Source of the DNA: Clostridia bacterium
GTDB taxonomy: Bacteria > Bacillota > Clostridia > Oscillospirales > Acutalibacteraceae
DNA: 63,133 nucleotides
Direction: 5' to 3'
NCBI GenBank assembly: GCA_017415515.1
Contig: JAFQGI010000002.1
Coordinates: 1 to 63,133 of the forward strand
Positions 17,221 to 58,827 of the stretch are shown one piece after another (the stretch's first letter is position 1; each line of letters opens with the position of its first letter). The notes under the pieces were generated by a model. That model saw nothing but the letters and a program-made list of their open reading frames with translations, was not told where the DNA came from and did not search any database. Both the position numbers and the translations under genes were made by a program.

Positions 17221-17249
17221 TTGCAACCCATCCGCAACTGTGCTACAAT
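17221..17249 (+). promoter_or_regulatory. Promoter of leader copy A
   Basis: -35 TTGCAA (17221-17226), 17-base spacer, -10 TACAAT (17244-17249). The two hexamers and the spacer length are identical to those of leader copy C on the other strand near 33170. Confidence 0.8.
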
Positions 17250-17256
17250 GAAAGCA

Positions 17257-17424
17257 CCACACAAAGTTTCATATTGTCTTTTGCCAGGGACTGTTTTTTT
17301 ACTTCGGTAAAAATGCAGGCTCTTATTTCGCATTTCCTGGTGAAAGACGAACAACTTTGTGTGGTAGCAAGTTGGAGCTGTGCATTTTTCGGTGCGTGGC
17401 TTCGGCTACGCACTTTTTTATTTT
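17257..17424 (+). promoter_or_regulatory. Candidate structured leader RNA with terminator, copy A
   Basis: Closing stem CCACACAAAGTT (17257-17268) with AACTTTGTGTGG (17353-17364). Second stem 17276-17288 with 17336-17348. A UUCG-capped apical hairpin ends in GGTAAAAATGCA; AAAAATGCAGGCTC (17309-17322) can pair with GAGCTGTGCATTTTT (17375-17389) as a pseudoknot. Three bases later comes terminator stem GTGCGTGGC / GCTACGCAC (17392-17413) with a U tract (17414-17424). The Shine-Dalgarno GAGGAGG follows at 17425. Copies B and C share this layout. The ligand or trans-acting partner is unknown. I do not recognise it as a known riboswitch or T-box. Confidence 0.7.
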
Positions 17425-17439
17425 GAGGAGGAAAGTAAA

Positions 17440-18336
17440 ATGGAAAAAGCATTGGTTCTCATCATCACTCTGGCTCTCCTATTCTCCGTTGCCGGCTGTA
17501 ACGACTACTACGAAAGAGACGATGACTCACCTCGTAAGACCCGTTCCACCACCAGCACCACGAAATATATCACTTTAGAGGAATGGTATGCCGATGTGGA
17601 TCTGTCTCAATTTTCCCGACACGGCCGTTCTACGGAAAACGATGCGATGTGGGTAGAAAAATCCGATTATACCGGCACCCAGTACGGATGCATCAACACC
17701 AAAGGCGAGTGGATTGTGCCTCTAACTTCGGAAATTAAAAGTGTCTCCAATTTTGATTTTTCGGATGCAGGTCTCAGCATAGTTATTATGAAAGGCAGCC
17801 AAAGAGAAGAAATGGGCGGTATCGCGGAGAAATACAGCGACGACTTCGGCGTGATCTACAATACGCAAGGAGAGGTGATGGAAAAATTTGAACTAGAGGG
17901 TGTTCTTTCTGAATGGACGCACCTGAACAACGGTAATATCTATCTTACGCAAGTCCGACCTTTCGGAACCAGCAACGAGTGTTGCCTTATGTACTGTGTA
18001 AACACTCGTCGATTCGTGGAAGTGGCGAGTCCCGCGTGGCAGAGCTTGTACAAGATCAAATATTCCGATGGACTTATGCTCGTTTATTCGCGGTCTTCTG
18101 ATACCCCGGGCACAAAATACTACGATGAAAGCGGAAGATGCTGTATCGACTTAGACAACAGCAACGAATACTACAGAGAAATTCTGTACGCTGATCATTT
18201 TGTAGACGGCCAAGCAAATGTAGAGTTCACCGGTATGGACGGAAAAATATACGCCGTAAAAATCAATAAACGCGGAGAATGGATCAGCGAACCGGAAGTA
18301 GTCTACAGCAGAAGATCCTTTGGTGACATCTTTTAA
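17440..18336 (+). CDS. Lipoprotein with WG-like repeats, downstream of structured leader
   Basis: A 298-residue lipoprotein: hydrophobic segment 3-18 with lipobox V-A-G-C. It contains a stretch like the WG (KWG) beta-repeat, GCINTKGEWIVPL, and weaker ones such as FGVIYNTQGEVM, IYAVKINKRGEWI. It is presumably on the cell surface; its ligand is unknown. The frame is open upstream through the leader terminator, but ATG 17440 has GAGGAGG nine bases before it and starts the signal. By eye it has lower GC than its neighbours, so it may be a recent accessory gene. Expression should be gated by the leader terminator. Confidence 0.72.
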   Translation: MEKALVLIITLALLFSVAGCNDYYERDDDSPRKTRSTTSTTKYITLEEWYADVDLSQFSRHGRSTENDAMWVEKSDYTGTQYGCINTKGEWIVPLTSEIKSVSNFDFSDAGLSIVIMKGSQREEMGGIAEKYSDDFGVIYNTQGEVMEKFELEGVLSEWTHLNNGNIYLTQVRPFGTSNECCLMYCVNTRRFVEVASPAWQSLYKIKYSDGLMLVYSRSSDTPGTKYYDESGRCCIDLDNSNEYYREILYADHFVDGQANVEFTGMDGKIYAVKINKRGEWISEPEVVYSRRSFGDIF

Positions 18337-31552: not shown

Positions 31553-32968
31553 TTAATTTTCACATTCTTTGATGGCGTCTTTGAACGCCTTGTCAATGTC
31601 CACAGAAAGACCGTCCAGACACTTCACCATCAGATCGCCCACCTGCTCACGAGCTTTGGAAGAGCCGTTGAAAGCGGGAGGAACAAAGTAGGAACTGAAA
31701 TTGTTAATGCTGGCCTGCACCGTACGGGCCACCAACCCGTTGTAACCATCTGCTTGGCTCAGCCATGCAGAATAAGAGGCGTGACGAGTAGCAGACTTGA
31801 TGACGGGCATATAGCCAGACGTCATCGAATAGGACATCTGAAAATCCGCATTGGTGGAGAGGAACTGAATGAACAGCCACGAAGCCATCAACTCCTGATC
31901 GGTAGTATCGGCATTTTTCAGAACGCACAAATTGGGGCCTTGGGAGACTGCTTTGGGATCGGCAGGATCCATCTGCGGAACAGGTGCCACACCCACCTCA
32001 AACTCATTTCCGGGGGCTTGATTGTAGGAAGCGCCACCGCTGGAGCCTATGCTCATATATCCATAAGAGCCGGTAAGCAGTTCCGAAGTATAACTACCGA
32101 AAAGATCTTGTGTCGTAAACAGCCCCTGCTGATAATATCCGCGCAATTCTTTCATCCACGCTCGATTTTCGGCGTTATCAAAAAGGAATTGTCCGCCATC
32201 CTTAGCGCTGATATAGTCCGTATCCATCTGCTTACACATGGTAATGAACCAGTTCGCTTCGTCATCGTAGCCTAAGGGAATGCAAGAGGGCTCCATCGCT
32301 TTGATTTGCGCACAAACCTGCCACATCTCATCCCAGGTGGTAGGCACCTTCAAACCGTACCGGTTGAAAAATGTCTTGTTGTAATACAGCACCTCTGTGG
32401 ACTTGCTCATAGGCAACGTATACATCTTGCCATCGCCGTAAGCTTTACCCTCGTTGTAGAAAGCGGTAACGAAATCCGCTTTCTGCGCATCGGTAAGACC
32501 GTATTCCGAATGGTCAATAAAATCATCCAGCGCCACAGTGGCGTTTGCTGTGTTATAGGCTACTACATGCTCCGGATAGCAAATAGCCACGTTAGGGGCT
32601 TGTCCCATCACGATCATGCTTTGTATTTGATCAAAAGTATCTTGATAGCCTCCATAGTAGGAGGGCTGAATGTGAATGTTGGGGTAGATTTTATTGAATT
32701 CCACAATATAGTCGTTTAATACGGCTTGCAATCTTGTACTCAACGTATGGGCAAAGGTGATGGTAACTACATCTTTGGGATCGAAAGATATCTCCTCTTT
32801 GTCTTCTACATCATTGTTACCATCTTGGTCATCTGTGTCAGATTGGCTGACATCCTCCCGCTGATCGTCGTCCCTGTCATCATTCTTGCTGCTGTCATCG
32901 CCGCAGGCGCACAACAGCAGCATCGTGAGCGCCAAAAGCAAGGCCAACAATCGTTTGTACATCTTCAT
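31553..32968 (-). CDS. ABC transporter solute-binding lipoprotein, family 1 (sugar type)
   Basis: A 471-residue lipoprotein with signal ending L-L-L-C-A-C, an Asp-rich linker (about 25-60), then an SBP family 1 body: VTITFAHTLSTRLQAVLNDY, FNKIYPNIHIQPSYYGGY, VLYYNKTFFNRYGLKVPTTWDEM and AEQFL-like SWLFIQFLSTNADFQMSY. Family members feed sugars or related solutes to an ABC permease; none is adjacent. Start ATG 32968 follows AAGGAGG and comes right after the terminator of leader copy C. The gene therefore appears to be controlled by termination in its leader. Confidence 0.87.
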   Translation of the reverse strand: MKMYKRLLALLLALTMLLLCACGDDSSKNDDRDDDQREDVSQSDTDDQDGNNDVEDKEEISFDPKDVVTITFAHTLSTRLQAVLNDYIVEFNKIYPNIHIQPSYYGGYQDTFDQIQSMIVMGQAPNVAICYPEHVVAYNTANATVALDDFIDHSEYGLTDAQKADFVTAFYNEGKAYGDGKMYTLPMSKSTEVLYYNKTFFNRYGLKVPTTWDEMWQVCAQIKAMEPSCIPLGYDDEANWFITMCKQMDTDYISAKDGGQFLFDNAENRAWMKELRGYYQQGLFTTQDLFGSYTSELLTGSYGYMSIGSSGGASYNQAPGNEFEVGVAPVPQMDPADPKAVSQGPNLCVLKNADTTDQELMASWLFIQFLSTNADFQMSYSMTSGYMPVIKSATRHASYSAWLSQADGYNGLVARTVQASINNFSSYFVPPAFNGSSKAREQVGDLMVKCLDGLSVDIDKAFKDAIKECEN

Positions 32969-32984: not shown

Positions 32985-33150
32985 AAATAAAAAAGTGCGT
33001 AGCCGATACCACGCACCGAAAAATGCACGGCTCCGTTTGCTACCACACAAAACTTTTTACGCCTACGACAAGTATGCGAAAATGAGCATGCATTTTTACC
33101 GAAAGTAAAAATGCACACTTGTCCCAAGCGTAGTATAAAGTTTTGTGTGG
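32985..33150 (-). promoter_or_regulatory. Candidate structured leader RNA with terminator, copy C
   Basis: Minus strand. Closing stem CCACACAAAAC (33150-33140) with GTTTTGTGTGG (33053-33043). Inner stem GACAAGT / ACTTGTC. Apical hairpin GTGCATTTTTAC-TTTC-GGTAAAAATGCA. Pseudoknot arm AAAAATGCATGCTC (33097-33084) with GGAGCCGTGCATTTTT (33034-33019). Terminator GTGCGTGG / CTACGCAC with loop TATCGG (33016-32995), then TTTTTTATTT and the Shine-Dalgarno. It matches copy A almost base for base in promoter, closing stem, pseudoknot and terminator, while the middle stem differs in sequence. Confidence 0.72.
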
Positions 33151-33157
33151 TGATTTT

Positions 33158-33186
33158 ATTGTAGCATACTGCGGTAAAATTTGCAA
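33158..33186 (-). promoter_or_regulatory. Promoter of leader copy C
   Basis: Minus strand -35 TTGCAA (33181-33186), 17-base spacer, -10 TACAAT (33158-33163). Identical hexamers and spacing to the copy A promoter. Confidence 0.8.
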
Positions 33187-53736: not shown

Positions 53737-55770
53737 ATGCCTGTCCGTCTTGCCGAAAGCGCCGGATTCTGCTTTGGCGTCAATAACGCGGTCAACCAAG
53801 TCTACCGTCTGCTGGACGAAGGGGAAAAGGTGTGTACCTTAGGCCCCATCATCCACAACCCTCAGGTGGTGGACAAGCTGGCATCCCGCGGCGTCACCAT
53901 CGTGGACGATCCCGCCGACGTACCTGCTGACAGCGTGCTGGTGATTCGCTCCCACGGCGTGCCCCAAAGCACCTACCGTCAGGTGGAAGCGCTGGGGGTG
54001 CGCTGCTGTGACGCCACCTGCCCCTTTGTGGCGAAGATTCATAAAATTGTGGATGAACACTCCGCACAGGGTGCAGTGGTGCTGATCGCCGGCAACCCCG
54101 AACACCCTGAGGTGTTGGGCATCCGCGGCCACTGTCACGGTGAGGAATACTGCTTCCACGACGAGGAAGAACTGGAGAATTTATTAGTGTCCCATCCTGA
54201 GTGGGACAAAACGCCCTGCATCATGGTGGCACAGACCACTTTTAACAAAACAATTTGGAAAAAGTGCGAAAAAATCGCAAAAAAACTCTGTACAAATGTA
54301 AAAATCTTTGATACAATATGCAGAGCTACTGCTAAAAGGCAGGAGGAGGCCATCTCCCTCGCCCAGCAGTGCGATCAAATGGTTATTGTCGGCGGACGAG
54401 AGAGTTCCAATACCGCCAAATTGCGCGACGTGTGCGCCGCCTACTGCCCCACCCTTTGGGTCGAGACAGCGGACGAGCTGCCCCGTGACCGCTTTTTGCC
54501 CGGTATGACGGTCGGTTTGACCGCCGGAGCATCCACCCCGGCCGATATTATAAAGGAGGTACACACAAAAATGTCCGAAATCATGAACAACGAATCCCTG
54601 GAAAAAAACTATGAGGAGATGAGCTCTGAAGAGTTTGCCGCCGCCATCGACGCGACTCTGCAGAATCCGACTGACGATAAAGTCCGCGGTCTGGTCGTTA
54701 GCATTGCGCCCAACGAGGTACAGGTCGAAGTCATCGGCCGCAAGCAGACCGGCTACATTCCGATCGATGAGCTGTCCAACGATCCCTCTGCCGATCCCCA
54801 CGACCTGGTGAAGGTGGGCGACGAGCTGTTGCTGCTCATCATGCGCACCAACGATCAGGAAGGCACCATCATGCTGTCTAAGAAGCGCGTTGACGCTCTC
54901 AAGGGCTGGCAGATCGTTGTGGATGCCGAGGCTGAGGGCGCCATCCTGGATGGCGTTGTCACCGAGGTCATCAAGGGCGGCGTGCTGGTGGTCACCAACG
55001 GTGTCCGCGTGTTCGTTCCCGCTTCCCACGCCTCTGTGGGTCGCATGGAGGATCTGAGCCCCCTGAAGGGTCAGAACGTCCAGCTGAAGATCCTGGAGGT
55101 CAACCAGAACCGCCGTCACGCTGTCGGCTCCATCCGTCTGGTGGCTCAGGCCGCCCGCAAGGAGCAGGAGGCCGCTTTCTGGGCTCAGGCCGAGGTCGGC
55201 CAGGAGTACACCGGCGCCGTCAAGTCCCTGACTTCCTATGGTGCTTTCGTGGACCTGGGCGGTGTGGACGGTATGGTGCACATCTCCGAGATGTCCTGGA
55301 GCCGCATTAAGCATCCCTCTGAGGTGATGAACGTGGGCGACACCGTCACCGTTTACATCAAGGCTCTGGATGCCGAGAAGCGCAAGATTTCTCTGGGCTA
55401 TCGCAAGACCGAGGACAACCCCTGGGAGATCTTCAAGGCTCAGTATCCCGTGGATTCCATCGTCACCGCCAAGGTTGTGGGCATGACCACCTTCGGTGTG
55501 TTCGCTCAGATCATCCCCGGCATCGACGGTCTGGTGCACATCAGCCAGATTGCCAACCACCGCGTGGAGAAGCCCCAGGACGAGCTGCAGGTCGGTCAGG
55601 AGATCACCGCGAAGATCACCGCCATCGACTATGACCGCAAGCGCATCAGCCTGAGCATCCGTGCTCTGCTGGAGCCCGAAGCTCCCGCTGAGGTGGAGGC
55701 TCCCGCCGAGGAGGCCGTTGAGGCCCCCGCTGAGGAAGCTGTCGCTGAGGAGGCTCCCGTCGAGGAGTAA
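53737..55770 (+). CDS. ispH: Fused IspH (HMBPP reductase) and ribosomal protein S1-type protein
   Basis: A 677-residue fusion known from Clostridia. Residues 1-278 are IspH, the 4Fe-4S enzyme that makes IPP and DMAPP. They contain SAGFCFGVNNAV (Cys 12), RSHGVP, DATCPFVAK (Cys 95), IAGNPEHPEV and DTICRATAKRQ (Cys 195). Residues from about 300 form four S1 RNA-binding domains (typical strands GYIPIDEL, VRVFVPASHAS, SYGAFVDLGGVDGMVHISEM, GVFAQIIPGIDGLVHISQI). The last 30 residues are an acidic Ala/Pro/Glu tail. Codon use shifts to GCT, CGT and CTG in the S1 half. An internal promoter and ribosome-binding site precede the S1 half. Confidence 0.95.
   Translation: MPVRLAESAGFCFGVNNAVNQVYRLLDEGEKVCTLGPIIHNPQVVDKLASRGVTIVDDPADVPADSVLVIRSHGVPQSTYRQVEALGVRCCDATCPFVAKIHKIVDEHSAQGAVVLIAGNPEHPEVLGIRGHCHGEEYCFHDEEELENLLVSHPEWDKTPCIMVAQTTFNKTIWKKCEKIAKKLCTNVKIFDTICRATAKRQEEAISLAQQCDQMVIVGGRESSNTAKLRDVCAAYCPTLWVETADELPRDRFLPGMTVGLTAGASTPADIIKEVHTKMSEIMNNESLEKNYEEMSSEEFAAAIDATLQNPTDDKVRGLVVSIAPNEVQVEVIGRKQTGYIPIDELSNDPSADPHDLVKVGDELLLLIMRTNDQEGTIMLSKKRVDALKGWQIVVDAEAEGAILDGVVTEVIKGGVLVVTNGVRVFVPASHASVGRMEDLSPLKGQNVQLKILEVNQNRRHAVGSIRLVAQAARKEQEAAFWAQAEVGQEYTGAVKSLTSYGAFVDLGGVDGMVHISEMSWSRIKHPSEVMNVGDTVTVYIKALDAEKRKISLGYRKTEDNPWEIFKAQYPVDSIVTAKVVGMTTFGVFAQIIPGIDGLVHISQIANHRVEKPQDELQVGQEITAKITAIDYDRKRISLSIRALLEPEAPAEVEAPAEEAVEAPAEEAVAEEAPVEE
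54289..54317 (+). promoter_or_regulatory. Possible internal promoter inside the ispH part
   Basis: TGTACA (54289-54294), 17-base spacer, TACAAT (54312-54317), in an unusual A-rich patch (54243-54320) of an otherwise GC-rich gene. It points towards the S1 half. Confidence 0.45.
54553..54573 (+). promoter_or_regulatory. Internal Shine-Dalgarno and ATG for the S1 half
   Basis: A full AAGGAGGT (54553-54560) lies ten bases before an in-frame ATG at 54571 (M-S-E-I-M-N-N), exactly where IspH ends. Translation from here would give a free 399-residue S1 protein. Confidence 0.6.
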
Positions 55771-56063: not shown

Positions 56064-56092
56064 TTGCCTTTTAGCTCCTCTTGTGATAAGAT
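56064..56092 (+). promoter_or_regulatory. Promoter of leader copy B
   Basis: -35 TTGCCT (56064-56069), 17-base spacer, -10 TAAGAT (56087-56092). The distance from the -10 to the closing stem of the leader is nearly the same as in copy A. Confidence 0.6.
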
Positions 56093-56098
56093 AAAAAG

Positions 56099-56328
56099 TG
56101 CCAAACAAATCTAAATAGCAAATGTAGGGTAACATTTCCTCCTTGGGGGAAGTGTATATCTTTATTTGTTTTACACAAAATGCTTGGAGGATCGGGTAAA
56201 AACACGATTTCTCCACCGAGTGTTTTGTGTGGCTTTGCCCTGCAATTGCATTTAGGATTTGTTTGGCGACAAAAGGAGTTATCGTGCTTTTCGGTGCGAC
56301 AGCTTCAGTTGTCGCACTTTTTTATTTT
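56099..56328 (+). promoter_or_regulatory. Candidate structured leader RNA with terminator, copy B (divergent)
   Basis: Closing stem from CCAAACAAATC (56101-56111 and on to 56121) with its complement ending GATTTGTTTGG (56246-56266). Second stem ACACAAAATGCTTGG (56173-56187) with CCGAGTGTTTTGTGT (56216-56230). Apical loop GGGTAAAAACACGAT: AAAAACACGAT (56198-56208) pairs with ATCGTGCTTTT (56281-56291), one mismatch. Terminator GTGCGACAGC / GTTGTCGCAC (56294-56317), TTTTTTATTTT, then AGGAGG. Layout as in A and C but sequences of the stems differ while still pairing. Confidence 0.68.
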
Positions 56329-56341
56329 AGGAGGAAAGAAA

Positions 56342-57709
56342 ATGATCCGAAAAAGCATCGCTCTTTTACTGGCACTTACCCTGCTGCTGTGCGGCACTGC
56401 CTGCGGCAAGCAAACGGCAGAAAAGCCCACCGACAGCAACGCGGACGACAATCCGCCCGCCTCGGTGGTCATCCCAGACTATACCATAGAGGATTACTTA
56501 GCCGCTATCGACCGGGGCGACTACGAGACCGTGTTGGTTTGGCTGGCACAGTACGCTGACACCGACATCCTGAATGACGAGCGCATCGTTGACTTTTTGA
56601 ACAAGATTGCCATCCTGCCTGTGGAAATACATCAGGGCGACCAGCACGACCTCTATTCTTACGATGAAAAGGGACACCTGATCAAAATAGAAAGTGTGTA
56701 CGACGGAGAACATTCCACCCACGAATATCCCCACGACGAGCACGGCAATCTGATAGACGAAGATATCATCCGTGAATACGACGCAAACGGTAACGTGGTA
56801 AGATTTGTCAGCACCAAAGTCTTCCCTTACGAGAGCGTCTTCACCTATAACGATAAGCAGCAACTCGTCCGCGAAGAGTATACCTATGAGGGTTCTGAAC
56901 CCGTAGTTTGCACGTATACCTACAACGAAAACGGACAACTGTTGGCCTTCCGCACCAGCAATGGCAACTATCGTATCTACACTTACGACGAAGACGGTAG
57001 ACTCATCGGTCAAGAATACGACAACCCCGAACCGCGTAAAGCCACTTTCTTCTACGATGAGGAAGGTCGGTACTTAGGCTATCGCTCCGCATCTCTGTCG
57101 GGAGACTCGGTGAGAGAAACGACCTATACCTACTACACCTATGACGGTAAAGACTACGTGCTGACCTATAAAGACGCCAACGAGGACAGCTATATAGACG
57201 AAACGATCTATACCTACGAAAAAGACCGCCTGATAAGCGAAAAACGCATCAGAAACGGCGAAACCATTAGCGAAACCGTGTACACCTACAACGAGGACGG
57301 TCGCCTGCTGAACAAGAACGTTTCCCACAACGGTGAGATGTACTCCGAAAGCGCCTACACCTATCAAGACGGCAAGCTCGTCTCGATTACCGAAACCCGT
57401 AACAACGGCAACGTGACGGAATACACCTACACCTACAACGAAAACGGCGATATTGCCACCATCTCCGCGGGTGACATAACCTACAACGGATACGGCGTGT
57501 GTACGTCGTTTATCATCGAGGAGGCCGATATTCGCCGCACCTATCGGGTGATGTATTACCCCGACGGCTTACCGGAGTGTTTGCCAGAGGCTCACAGCTA
57601 CACATTGAACAACCTGGTGTGGTTCCGCGGCGTGCCCGAAGCACCGCAAGCGGAGATGCCCATTATTCCGACCGATGAACTACCGTACGGTGTAATCAAA
57701 TTCTATTGA
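56342..57709 (+). CDS. Lipoprotein with YD/RHS-like repeats, downstream of structured leader
   Basis: A 455-residue surface lipoprotein. Signal with lipobox G-T-A-C, charged linker, a short helical part (VVIPDYTIEDYLAAIDRGDYE), then at least nine Y-[TD]-Y-[DN]-x-x-G-x-L units (YSYDEKGHLI, FTYNDKQQLV, YTYNENGQLL, YTYDEDGRLI, FYDEEGRYL, YTYNEDGRLL, YTYNENGDIA). It resembles the gene at 5016 in size and pattern but not closely in sequence. ATG 56342 follows AGGAGGAA; the frame is open through the leader. Its expression should depend on read-through of the leader terminator. Confidence 0.76.
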   Translation: MIRKSIALLLALTLLLCGTACGKQTAEKPTDSNADDNPPASVVIPDYTIEDYLAAIDRGDYETVLVWLAQYADTDILNDERIVDFLNKIAILPVEIHQGDQHDLYSYDEKGHLIKIESVYDGEHSTHEYPHDEHGNLIDEDIIREYDANGNVVRFVSTKVFPYESVFTYNDKQQLVREEYTYEGSEPVVCTYTYNENGQLLAFRTSNGNYRIYTYDEDGRLIGQEYDNPEPRKATFFYDEEGRYLGYRSASLSGDSVRETTYTYYTYDGKDYVLTYKDANEDSYIDETIYTYEKDRLISEKRIRNGETISETVYTYNEDGRLLNKNVSHNGEMYSESAYTYQDGKLVSITETRNNGNVTEYTYTYNENGDIATISAGDITYNGYGVCTSFIIEEADIRRTYRVMYYPDGLPECLPEAHSYTLNNLVWFRGVPEAPQAEMPIIPTDELPYGVIKFY

Positions 57710-58442: not shown

Positions 58443-58813
58443 CTGAGTGAGCTGAACAGCCGCGTGGGCGGGCAACCGCACATGAGGAAAGTCCGAGCTT
58501 CACAGGGCAGGATAACGGCTAACGGCCGCCGGGGGTGACCCTAGGGAAAGTGCAACAGAAATATACCGCCTATGGCTTGGCTTATGCCTTGAGTGCGTGG
58601 CAACACGCCGCCCATAGGTAAGGGTGGAAAGGCGAGGTAAGAGCTCACCGGCGCATTGGAGACAATGCGGCCCTGTAAACCCTATCCGAAGCAACTTCGA
58701 CCGGAGCGATACATTGGCCCGATGTGCTCCAACGGAAGGCTAGAGCCGTCTGGCAACAGGCGGCCCAGATAGATGGCTGTTCACGACAGAACTCGGCTTA
58801 CAGGCTCACTCAA
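58443..58813 (+). ncRNA. rnpB: RNase P RNA, bacterial class A
   Basis: The catalytic RNA that matures tRNA 5' ends. P1 is GAGTGAGC (58445-58452) with GCTCACTC (58804-58811). The conserved core is visible: GAGGAAAGTCCGAGCTTC, then ACAGGGCAGGATAACGGC, GGGTGACCCTAGGGAAAGTG with CAACAGAAATATACC, and towards the 3' end GATAGATGGCTGTTC and ACAGAACTCGGCTTACAGG. The Gly-Pro-like ANAG-type order is that of class A. Ends are set by P1 and by the promoter. Confidence 0.96.
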
Positions 58814-58827
58814 ACTTTACAGAGATC

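Follow-up and report, generated by a model that had tools for sequence, protein, structure and literature searches.

What kind of RNA stands ahead of the gene for a 298-residue lipoprotein-like protein (17440..18336, + strand), whose match to the WG repeat is marginal and under the Pfam cut-off, and does it govern transcription of that gene? The gene lies in a 63,133-nucleotide stretch of Clostridia DNA, analysed here as a whole and called the window. A first-pass annotation of the window had pointed to three copies of a structured leader and proposed that they are transcription attenuators of an undescribed RNA class.

The copy ahead of this gene, copy A, begins on the + strand with a promoter (17221..17249) in which TTGCAA (17221-17226) is followed, after a 17-nt spacer, by the extended -10 element TGTGCTACAAT (17239-17249). 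A stem begins at 17257, seven bases past the end of the -10 element as had been described; in the predicted fold, P1 joins CCACACAAAGTT (17257..17268, +) to AACTTTGTGTGG (17353..17364, +), a helix that also shows covariation. The same fold places an internal loop with a conserved AUA and the 5' strand of a second helix, P2, at 17271..17293 (+). At the apex, fold and duplex energy make segment a, TTTTTTTAC (17294..17302, +), the 5' strand of a local hairpin, and duplex energy and covariation make segment b, GGTAAAAATGCAGGCTC (17306..17322, +), the pseudoknot loop, which pairs with a too. Segment c, GGAGCTGTGCATTTTT (17374..17389, +), has two candidate partners, b in the pseudoknot or d in an antiterminator (17374-17384 with 17393-17403), and stops 1-2 bases 5' of the terminator stem without overlapping it. 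Segments d and e make up the intrinsic terminator (17392..17419, +; stem 17392-17413, U tract 17414-17419). The Shine-Dalgarno sequence GAGGAGG (17425-17431) comes directly after the U tract, again as annotated, and the ATG start is at 17440 (both within 17425..17442, +).

The two other copies share this layout. Copy C lies on the - strand, with its promoter (TTGCAA...TATGCTACAAT) at 33158..33186 and the element at 32986..33152; P1 pairs 33137-33150 with 33043-33056, a and b are at 33105-33112 and 33084-33100, c is at 33019-33034, and the terminator with its U tract is at 32989-33016. The gene after it (31553..32968, -) encodes an extracellular solute-binding lipoprotein (SBP_bac_8). Copy B, on the + strand, has the -10 region TTGTGATAAGATAAAA of its promoter at 56081..56096 and is a longer form with an extra arm (56099..56326): the P1 region pairs 56100-56129 with 56238-56267, the 5' strand of the local hairpin is at 56186-56194, b at 56195-56214, c at 56275-56291, and the terminator with its U tract at 56294-56323. 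It precedes a gene for a lipoprotein-like protein with RHS repeats (56342..57709, +). The local alternative UUUUUAC/GUAAAAA noted in the first pass is present in the predicted folds of copies A and C; in copy B the local hairpin is built from other bases (GGAGGATCG vs CGATTTCTCC) and is still predicted to exclude the pseudoknot. Upstream of copy B, a single protein (53737-55770, +) fuses LytB to four S1 RNA-binding domains, and past the gene after copy B there is a full-length match (288 bits) to bacterial class A RNase P RNA at 58444-58816 (+).

Scanning the window with the covariance model described below returned the three copies in the sense direction (E 2.3e-32, 2.5e-30 and 1.5e-10) and six weaker matches; two of these fall on the opposite strand of copies C and A, and the other four lie elsewhere with E 1.1 to 2.7. 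All three copies fold far more stably than shuffled sequences (z-scores -8.2 for A, -9.8 for C and -8.9 for B; 0/200 shuffles equally stable in each). The complementarity between apical loop and downstream arm, noted in the first-pass annotation, gave duplexes of -14.7 to -14.8 kcal/mol, compared to -5.1 to -5.6 kcal/mol for shuffled arms; among 2000 shuffles per copy, one equalled it in A, one in C and none in B. Taken singly, other parts are less distinctive. The promoter alone and the terminator alone are not beyond chance in the copy A stretch (one each, with 0.5 and 0.6 expected), and they carry weight because they are conserved in relatives. The antiterminator of copy C alone is also within chance, with 218 of 2000 shuffles as good, compared to 25 for A and 12 for B.

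Conservation was followed with a covariance model, R1, of 167 positions, built from eight copies in the own genome, where a DNA search had matched 10 places. The only pairs in R1 are P1 and the antiterminator, so that the pseudoknot, the terminator and the local hairpin stand outside the model fit. An exact pattern search of the genus, which returned the own genome only, was too strict, and the model was used instead. With R1 at E <= 1, 7/10 genomes of the genus were matched (own included), and the best match in each of the seven had an E of at most 2.2e-6. In the samples of more than 40 genomes, where 7-9 candidates were scored per genome and the counts are lower bounds, we found matches in 110/300 genomes of the family (E 0.01, own included), 122/346 of the order (E 0.001; 18 of them own or same family), 82/392 of the class (E 1e-4; 79 of them labelled same class only, thus from other orders) and 2/398 of the phylum (E 1e-4; the own genome and one of the same family). 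The highest counts per genome, 16 and 22 matches, came from two members of a single genus, with 150 candidates scored per genome. A pattern for the 3' core found at least 119 stretches; the 80 listed ones, which were then searched with the model, are MAGs; their labels include Oscillospiraceae, Ruminococcaceae, Clostridia and Clostridiales, and many of their names refer to the ruminant gut. Three patterns gave no match in viral contigs, copy A was unmatched in plasmids, and a phage collection yielded two matches, both in unverified faecal scaffolds. One of these scaffolds resembles a bacterial chromosome, with Clp-like and metallo-beta-lactamase-like frames (identified by eye from translations).

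The relatives were gathered into two sets. Alignments A4 and A5 (62 and 88 rows; A5 was gathered with a pattern in which some of the c:d sequence is fixed), less two antisense overlaps, two end fragments and five duplicates, gave 141 elements, of which 132 could be parsed (the earlier set; nine were unparsable). Alignment A7 (78 rows), less 8 already seen and 1 unparsed, gave 69 elements outside both the model-building and the earlier sets. Parsed elements thus total 201; counts by alignment column used A5 and A4 whole.

Over the 201 elements, with a median length of 169 nt (range 144-228 nt), the order from 5' to 3' is promoter, P1, AUA internal loop, a variable P2 and the apical hairpin a:b; once P2 and P1 are closed by their 3' strands, there follow a linker, arm c with a U run at its end, the terminator and, in many cases, a Shine-Dalgarno sequence. 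An extended -10 (TGnTAnnnT) lies within 24 nt upstream in 184/201. P1 shows double changes in 13/14 pairs in an alignment fitted to P1. The internal-loop ATA is kept in 187/201 elements, and AATA in 150/201 compared to 56 in shuffles. The loop starts with GGYAAAA in 177/201, a count that is not independent because loops were located by closely similar motifs, and the linker contains RCAA or GCA in 192/201, by a loose pattern without control. The longer form with an extra arm, to which copy B belongs, is a minority: the loop lies more than 75 nt into the element in 26/201. By a simple script without a gene caller, a Shine-Dalgarno-led start codon follows 8-22 nt past the element in 111/201 and within 130 nt in 150/201, which in these places an intrinsic terminator between promoter and start codon, as in an attenuator. 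In the remaining 51 no start was found within 130 nt, and some of these are the first copies of tandem pairs. Such pairs occur at L191 1501-1984, L199 1501-1888, L122 2355-2731, L074 2159-2704, L151 596-1057 and L235 166-571, with promoter-like sequence ahead of the second copy as well; that each copy of a pair has its own promoter is left unexplained by a plain picture of one switch per gene.

Evidence that the pairings covary came from a swap test, in which the energy of an element's own partners is compared with that of partners exchanged between elements, reversed sequences serving as decoy. For the pseudoknot in the 69 elements, own loop:arm pairs reached -15.4 compared to -11.6 when swapped (z -13.0, decoy -0.8), so the loop and downstream arm proposed in the first pass do covary; in the 132 earlier elements z was -16.5 with a decoy of -5.1. 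The pseudoknot had no part in the fitting of A5, where 91.4% of its cells are paired and double changes occur in 6/13 pairs; the double-changed cells number 48, compared to 4.2 in shuffles and no more than 17 when the arms are slid. One of five measures, further pair types, was not above shuffles (16 vs 15.1; 176/500 as high). The selection of relatives with R1 did not help this test. The local hairpin a:b gave z -12.9 (decoy -4.0) in the 132 elements and z -8.9 (decoy -2.8) in the 69. Swaps keep shared ancestry, and relatedness adds something to these scores, as the larger decoy values indicate: in the earlier set the decoy reached -5.1 for the pseudoknot, and for the local hairpin it reached -4.0.

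The first-pass account of the switch was right about the stem, the pseudoknot and the terminator and missed the step that connects the last two. RNAalifold, which cannot form pseudoknots, picked the antiterminator c:d unprompted, pairing arm c with the 5' half of the terminator, and single-sequence folds of eight copies gave the antiterminator in four and the terminator in four. In the swap test the antiterminator scored z -12.8 in the 69 elements (decoy -0.4) and z -11.8 in the 132 (decoy -1.6), a result partly helped by selection because R1, through which all relatives were found, gives credit for P1 and c:d pairs. On A5, an alignment fitted to it, 97.0% of cells pair and 7/12 pairs have double changes. 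The terminator d:e, to which the alignment was not fitted, has 98.8% of cells paired and double changes in 5/9 pairs, and the double-change counts for pseudoknot, antiterminator and terminator each exceed those of slid versions. A conserved alternative pairing that excludes the terminator, as expected of an attenuator, is thus present. In some distant copies (L261, L230 and L232) a long terminator loop appears, by eye, to match the linker before arm c, a match that would be unneeded unless the antiterminator forms. Sequence statistics thus establish the predicted pairings, their mutual exclusion, their conservation and their position ahead of genes, and the stems and pseudoknot are kept through paired changes in many Clostridia genomes, well beyond the genome in which they were first noticed.

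We believe that the element is very probably a cis-acting transcription attenuator, carrying its own promoter just before the gene and working through a ladder of four exclusive pairings. The rungs would be the apical local hairpin a:b, the long-range pseudoknot b:c, the antiterminator c:d and the intrinsic terminator d:e, each excluding the next. Because segments a to e pair only with their neighbours, two states would follow by parity. In the read-through state a:b and c:d would form together, no terminator would arise and the gene would be transcribed. In the termination state b:c would take the antiterminator strand, d:e would form and the RNA would end before the Shine-Dalgarno sequence; capture of that strand would make the pseudoknot an anti-antiterminator. 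P1, the conserved AUA internal loop and P2 would display loop b and are likely the sensor. We infer, from pairing logic, both that the element switches in the cell and which state gives which output. Two further contacts were weighed on sequence grounds, a possible triple helix in which two U tracts would lie on the A tract and a possible pairing between loop b and the Shine-Dalgarno sequence of its own gene; they form no part of the proposed scheme.

The predicted energies suit such a switch. In the 3' part, the gap between the read-through and termination folds is 0.1 kcal/mol in A, 1.5 in C and 1.0 in B; over the 201 elements the median lies -3.2 kcal/mol toward the antiterminator, and 103/201 are within 4 kcal/mol. 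The pseudoknot duplex is ~8-9 kcal/mol better than the local hairpin, a figure that leaves out the topological cost of a pseudoknot, and its formation would tip the balanced 3' part to termination. The ladder makes a prediction for each mutation of a helix, and the scheme is therefore directly testable.

The genes behind the element are varied. The 113 downstream proteins taken from the 141 elements only (start within 130 nt; first 450 residues, Pfam E <= 0.001) fall into 72 Pfam families. Among the commonest are LRR_5 (BspA-type leucine-rich repeats) with 16, DZR (double zinc ribbon) with 5, WG_beta_rep with 4, MazE_antitoxin (MazE/AbrB-type) with 4, AMP-binding with 3 and EcoRI-type methylases with 2. 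Amino-acid biosynthesis is absent among the commonest families of these 113 proteins. A crude rule gave a signal or membrane-like N terminus to 65/113, of which 29 also carry a lipobox-like site. We read this as a scattered regulon, rich in surface-type proteins, under a predicted attenuator; the variety of genes speaks more for a general signal than for feedback from a pathway. Several long-form copies (L092, L095, L085, L117, L097 and L132) are followed by a repeated partner, the gene for a small protein rich in Cys, in most cases of 63-86 residues (e.g. CLGNGEQGFECCCDECDYFLLCFPEF). Short AbrB/MazE-like proteins of 79-84 residues follow the divergent copies L238, L241, L258 and L246 (by eye); a regulator under the element could widen the element's effect.

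The signal would most likely be a small ligand or ion that shifts the choice between a:b and b:c by acting on the apical loop or on the P1/P2 domain. An indirect pointer to small-molecule binding is the conserved AUA of the internal loop. We tentatively suggest an undescribed riboswitch class, one of the abundant cis-regulatory RNAs of gut Clostridia, in which one general signal would control a scattered surface and accessory regulon through the four-rung ladder. Present in many Clostridia families, with as many as 22 matches in a genome, the element would be a major regulator of gut-bacterial surface display, and its signal would tell what is being sensed by these organisms, most of them uncultured.

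Cyclic di-GMP was considered as the general signal and rejected: GGDEF was not found in 10/18 element-bearing genomes, including the one with 22 matches (seven of the 10 are >90% complete; the own genome is only 68% complete). Somewhat less probable than a riboswitch, and still to be taken seriously, is a trans-acting RNA-binding protein, a global regulator that would bind P1 and the AUA loop or the apical loop and tip the same ladder. So many copies before unrelated genes would fit such a factor, and the bases kept at the AUA (187/201) and, by the non-independent count, at the GGYAAAA loop start (177/201) could be protein contacts. Its obvious candidates did not turn up, however: neither CAT_RBD (BglG/LicT) nor CsrA nor a second NusG was found in any of the 18 element-bearing genomes, where NusG was never present in more than one copy. 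These absences argue against BglG/LicT, CsrA or LoaP as the general partner, with the reservation that some of the genomes are incomplete, as the failure to find NusG itself in 2/18 indicates. Of 12 other genomes, unmatched in the order sample, 7 have GGDEF, 2 have CAT_RBD, 1 has CsrA and 1 has a second NusG; element-bearing genomes are not marked by any of the four.

We consider it unlikely that the ladder senses temperature, transcription speed or ion strength without a ligand, through the fine balance of a:b/c:d against b:c/d:e. The near-equal 3' folds of the window copies, and the 103/201 elements within 4 kcal/mol, speak for it, and c and d lie only a few bases apart, so that polymerase speed could choose the partner of c; base conservation in the AUA internal loop, however, is not expected from balance alone.

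Improbable, in our estimate, is a free-standing small RNA that would be made and ended by its own signals and act in trans, the gene behind it being incidental. A promoter motif in 184/201 elements together with the terminator, first tandem copies that end before the second promoter, and the 51/201 elements in which no start was found within 130 nt are all compatible with it. A Shine-Dalgarno-led start 8-22 nt on in 111/201 speaks against it, and a covarying antiterminator would be purposeless in an RNA meant to end there.

The many dispersed and sometimes tandem copies could also suggest a miniature mobile repeat with a promoter, spread by transposition, whose fold would be a by-product of inverted repeats. 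One copy (L269 3001-3121), in an unverified human-faecal scaffold labelled phage, has an integrase-like frame upstream (by eye from translation), and the element may thus travel on mobile DNA. As an account of the fold, this origin is very improbable: the sequences diverge strongly while the four pairings persist by paired changes, and a position before a start codon is common. Attenuation by a ribosome translating a leader peptide is hardly credible, since the ladder of alternative hairpins does resemble amino-acid operon attenuators but an internal Shine-Dalgarno sequence and start occur in only 23/201 elements compared to 48 in shuffles, a depletion, and amino-acid biosynthesis is not among the commonest downstream families.

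The preferred reading, an attenuator of an undescribed class, was then set against known RNAs. None of the 4227 models of Rfam 15 matched the window copies or 20 related loci at the gathering threshold, where the window gave only RNase P and the 20 loci only SAM, tRNA and 5S, elsewhere in the loci. The first-pass statement that the leader could not be matched to a T-box or to familiar riboswitch consensus sequences agrees with this, as does, together with the conserved pairings, its proposal of an undescribed attenuator. A lax search of the three window copies and of a tandem pair (L191) returned 38 weak matches, 16 of them to microRNA models and none near its cut-off. All three window copies match ncS025, with 13.5-19 bits where the cut-off is 46; TarB came up in A and C, and MIR2670 in C and B, and the tandem pair shares none of the three. 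We attribute these matches, all far under cut-off, to chance or to the terminator hairpin alone. The 224 motifs of Weinberg 2017 are reportedly included in Rfam. Within the part of the literature that our search covered, including portions of the RNA-discovery papers PMC11109978, PMC8632094 and PMC2864571, we found no description of the element. On the strength of Rfam 15 and this partial literature, we read it as an undescribed class whose features are the four-rung ladder and a pseudoknot acting as anti-antiterminator.

Several known systems resemble it in part. Cyclic di-GMP riboswitch regulons of Clostridia likewise place several copies per genome before surface-protein genes; the element differs in having no Rfam match and in that 10/18 of its genomes yielded no GGDEF. 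BglG/LicT and LoaP antitermination also control terminator read-through, whereas the 18 element-bearing genomes yielded neither a CAT_RBD protein nor a second NusG. T-box leaders, too, set an antiterminator against a terminator in Gram-positive leaders. The element, unlike these, has no Rfam T-box match, its apical loop would pair with the antiterminator strand in cis, and amino-acid genes are not among the commonest downstream. In trp-type attenuators successive segments pair 1:2, 2:3 and 3:4 and parity sets the output; the element differs in having no sign of a leader peptide, one rung that is a pseudoknot, four rungs in all, and diverse genes behind it. The fluoride/crcB and ZTP/pfl riboswitches have a long-range pseudoknot, as the element does. 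They also share with it the 5' leader position and a terminator that overlaps or lies just downstream. In the crcB and pfl passages of PMC2864571, terminators are described and the ligand is expected to raise expression. Compared to crcB and pfl, the element has no Rfam match, and its pseudoknot would, by the logic of the ladder, favour termination by removing the antiterminator strand.
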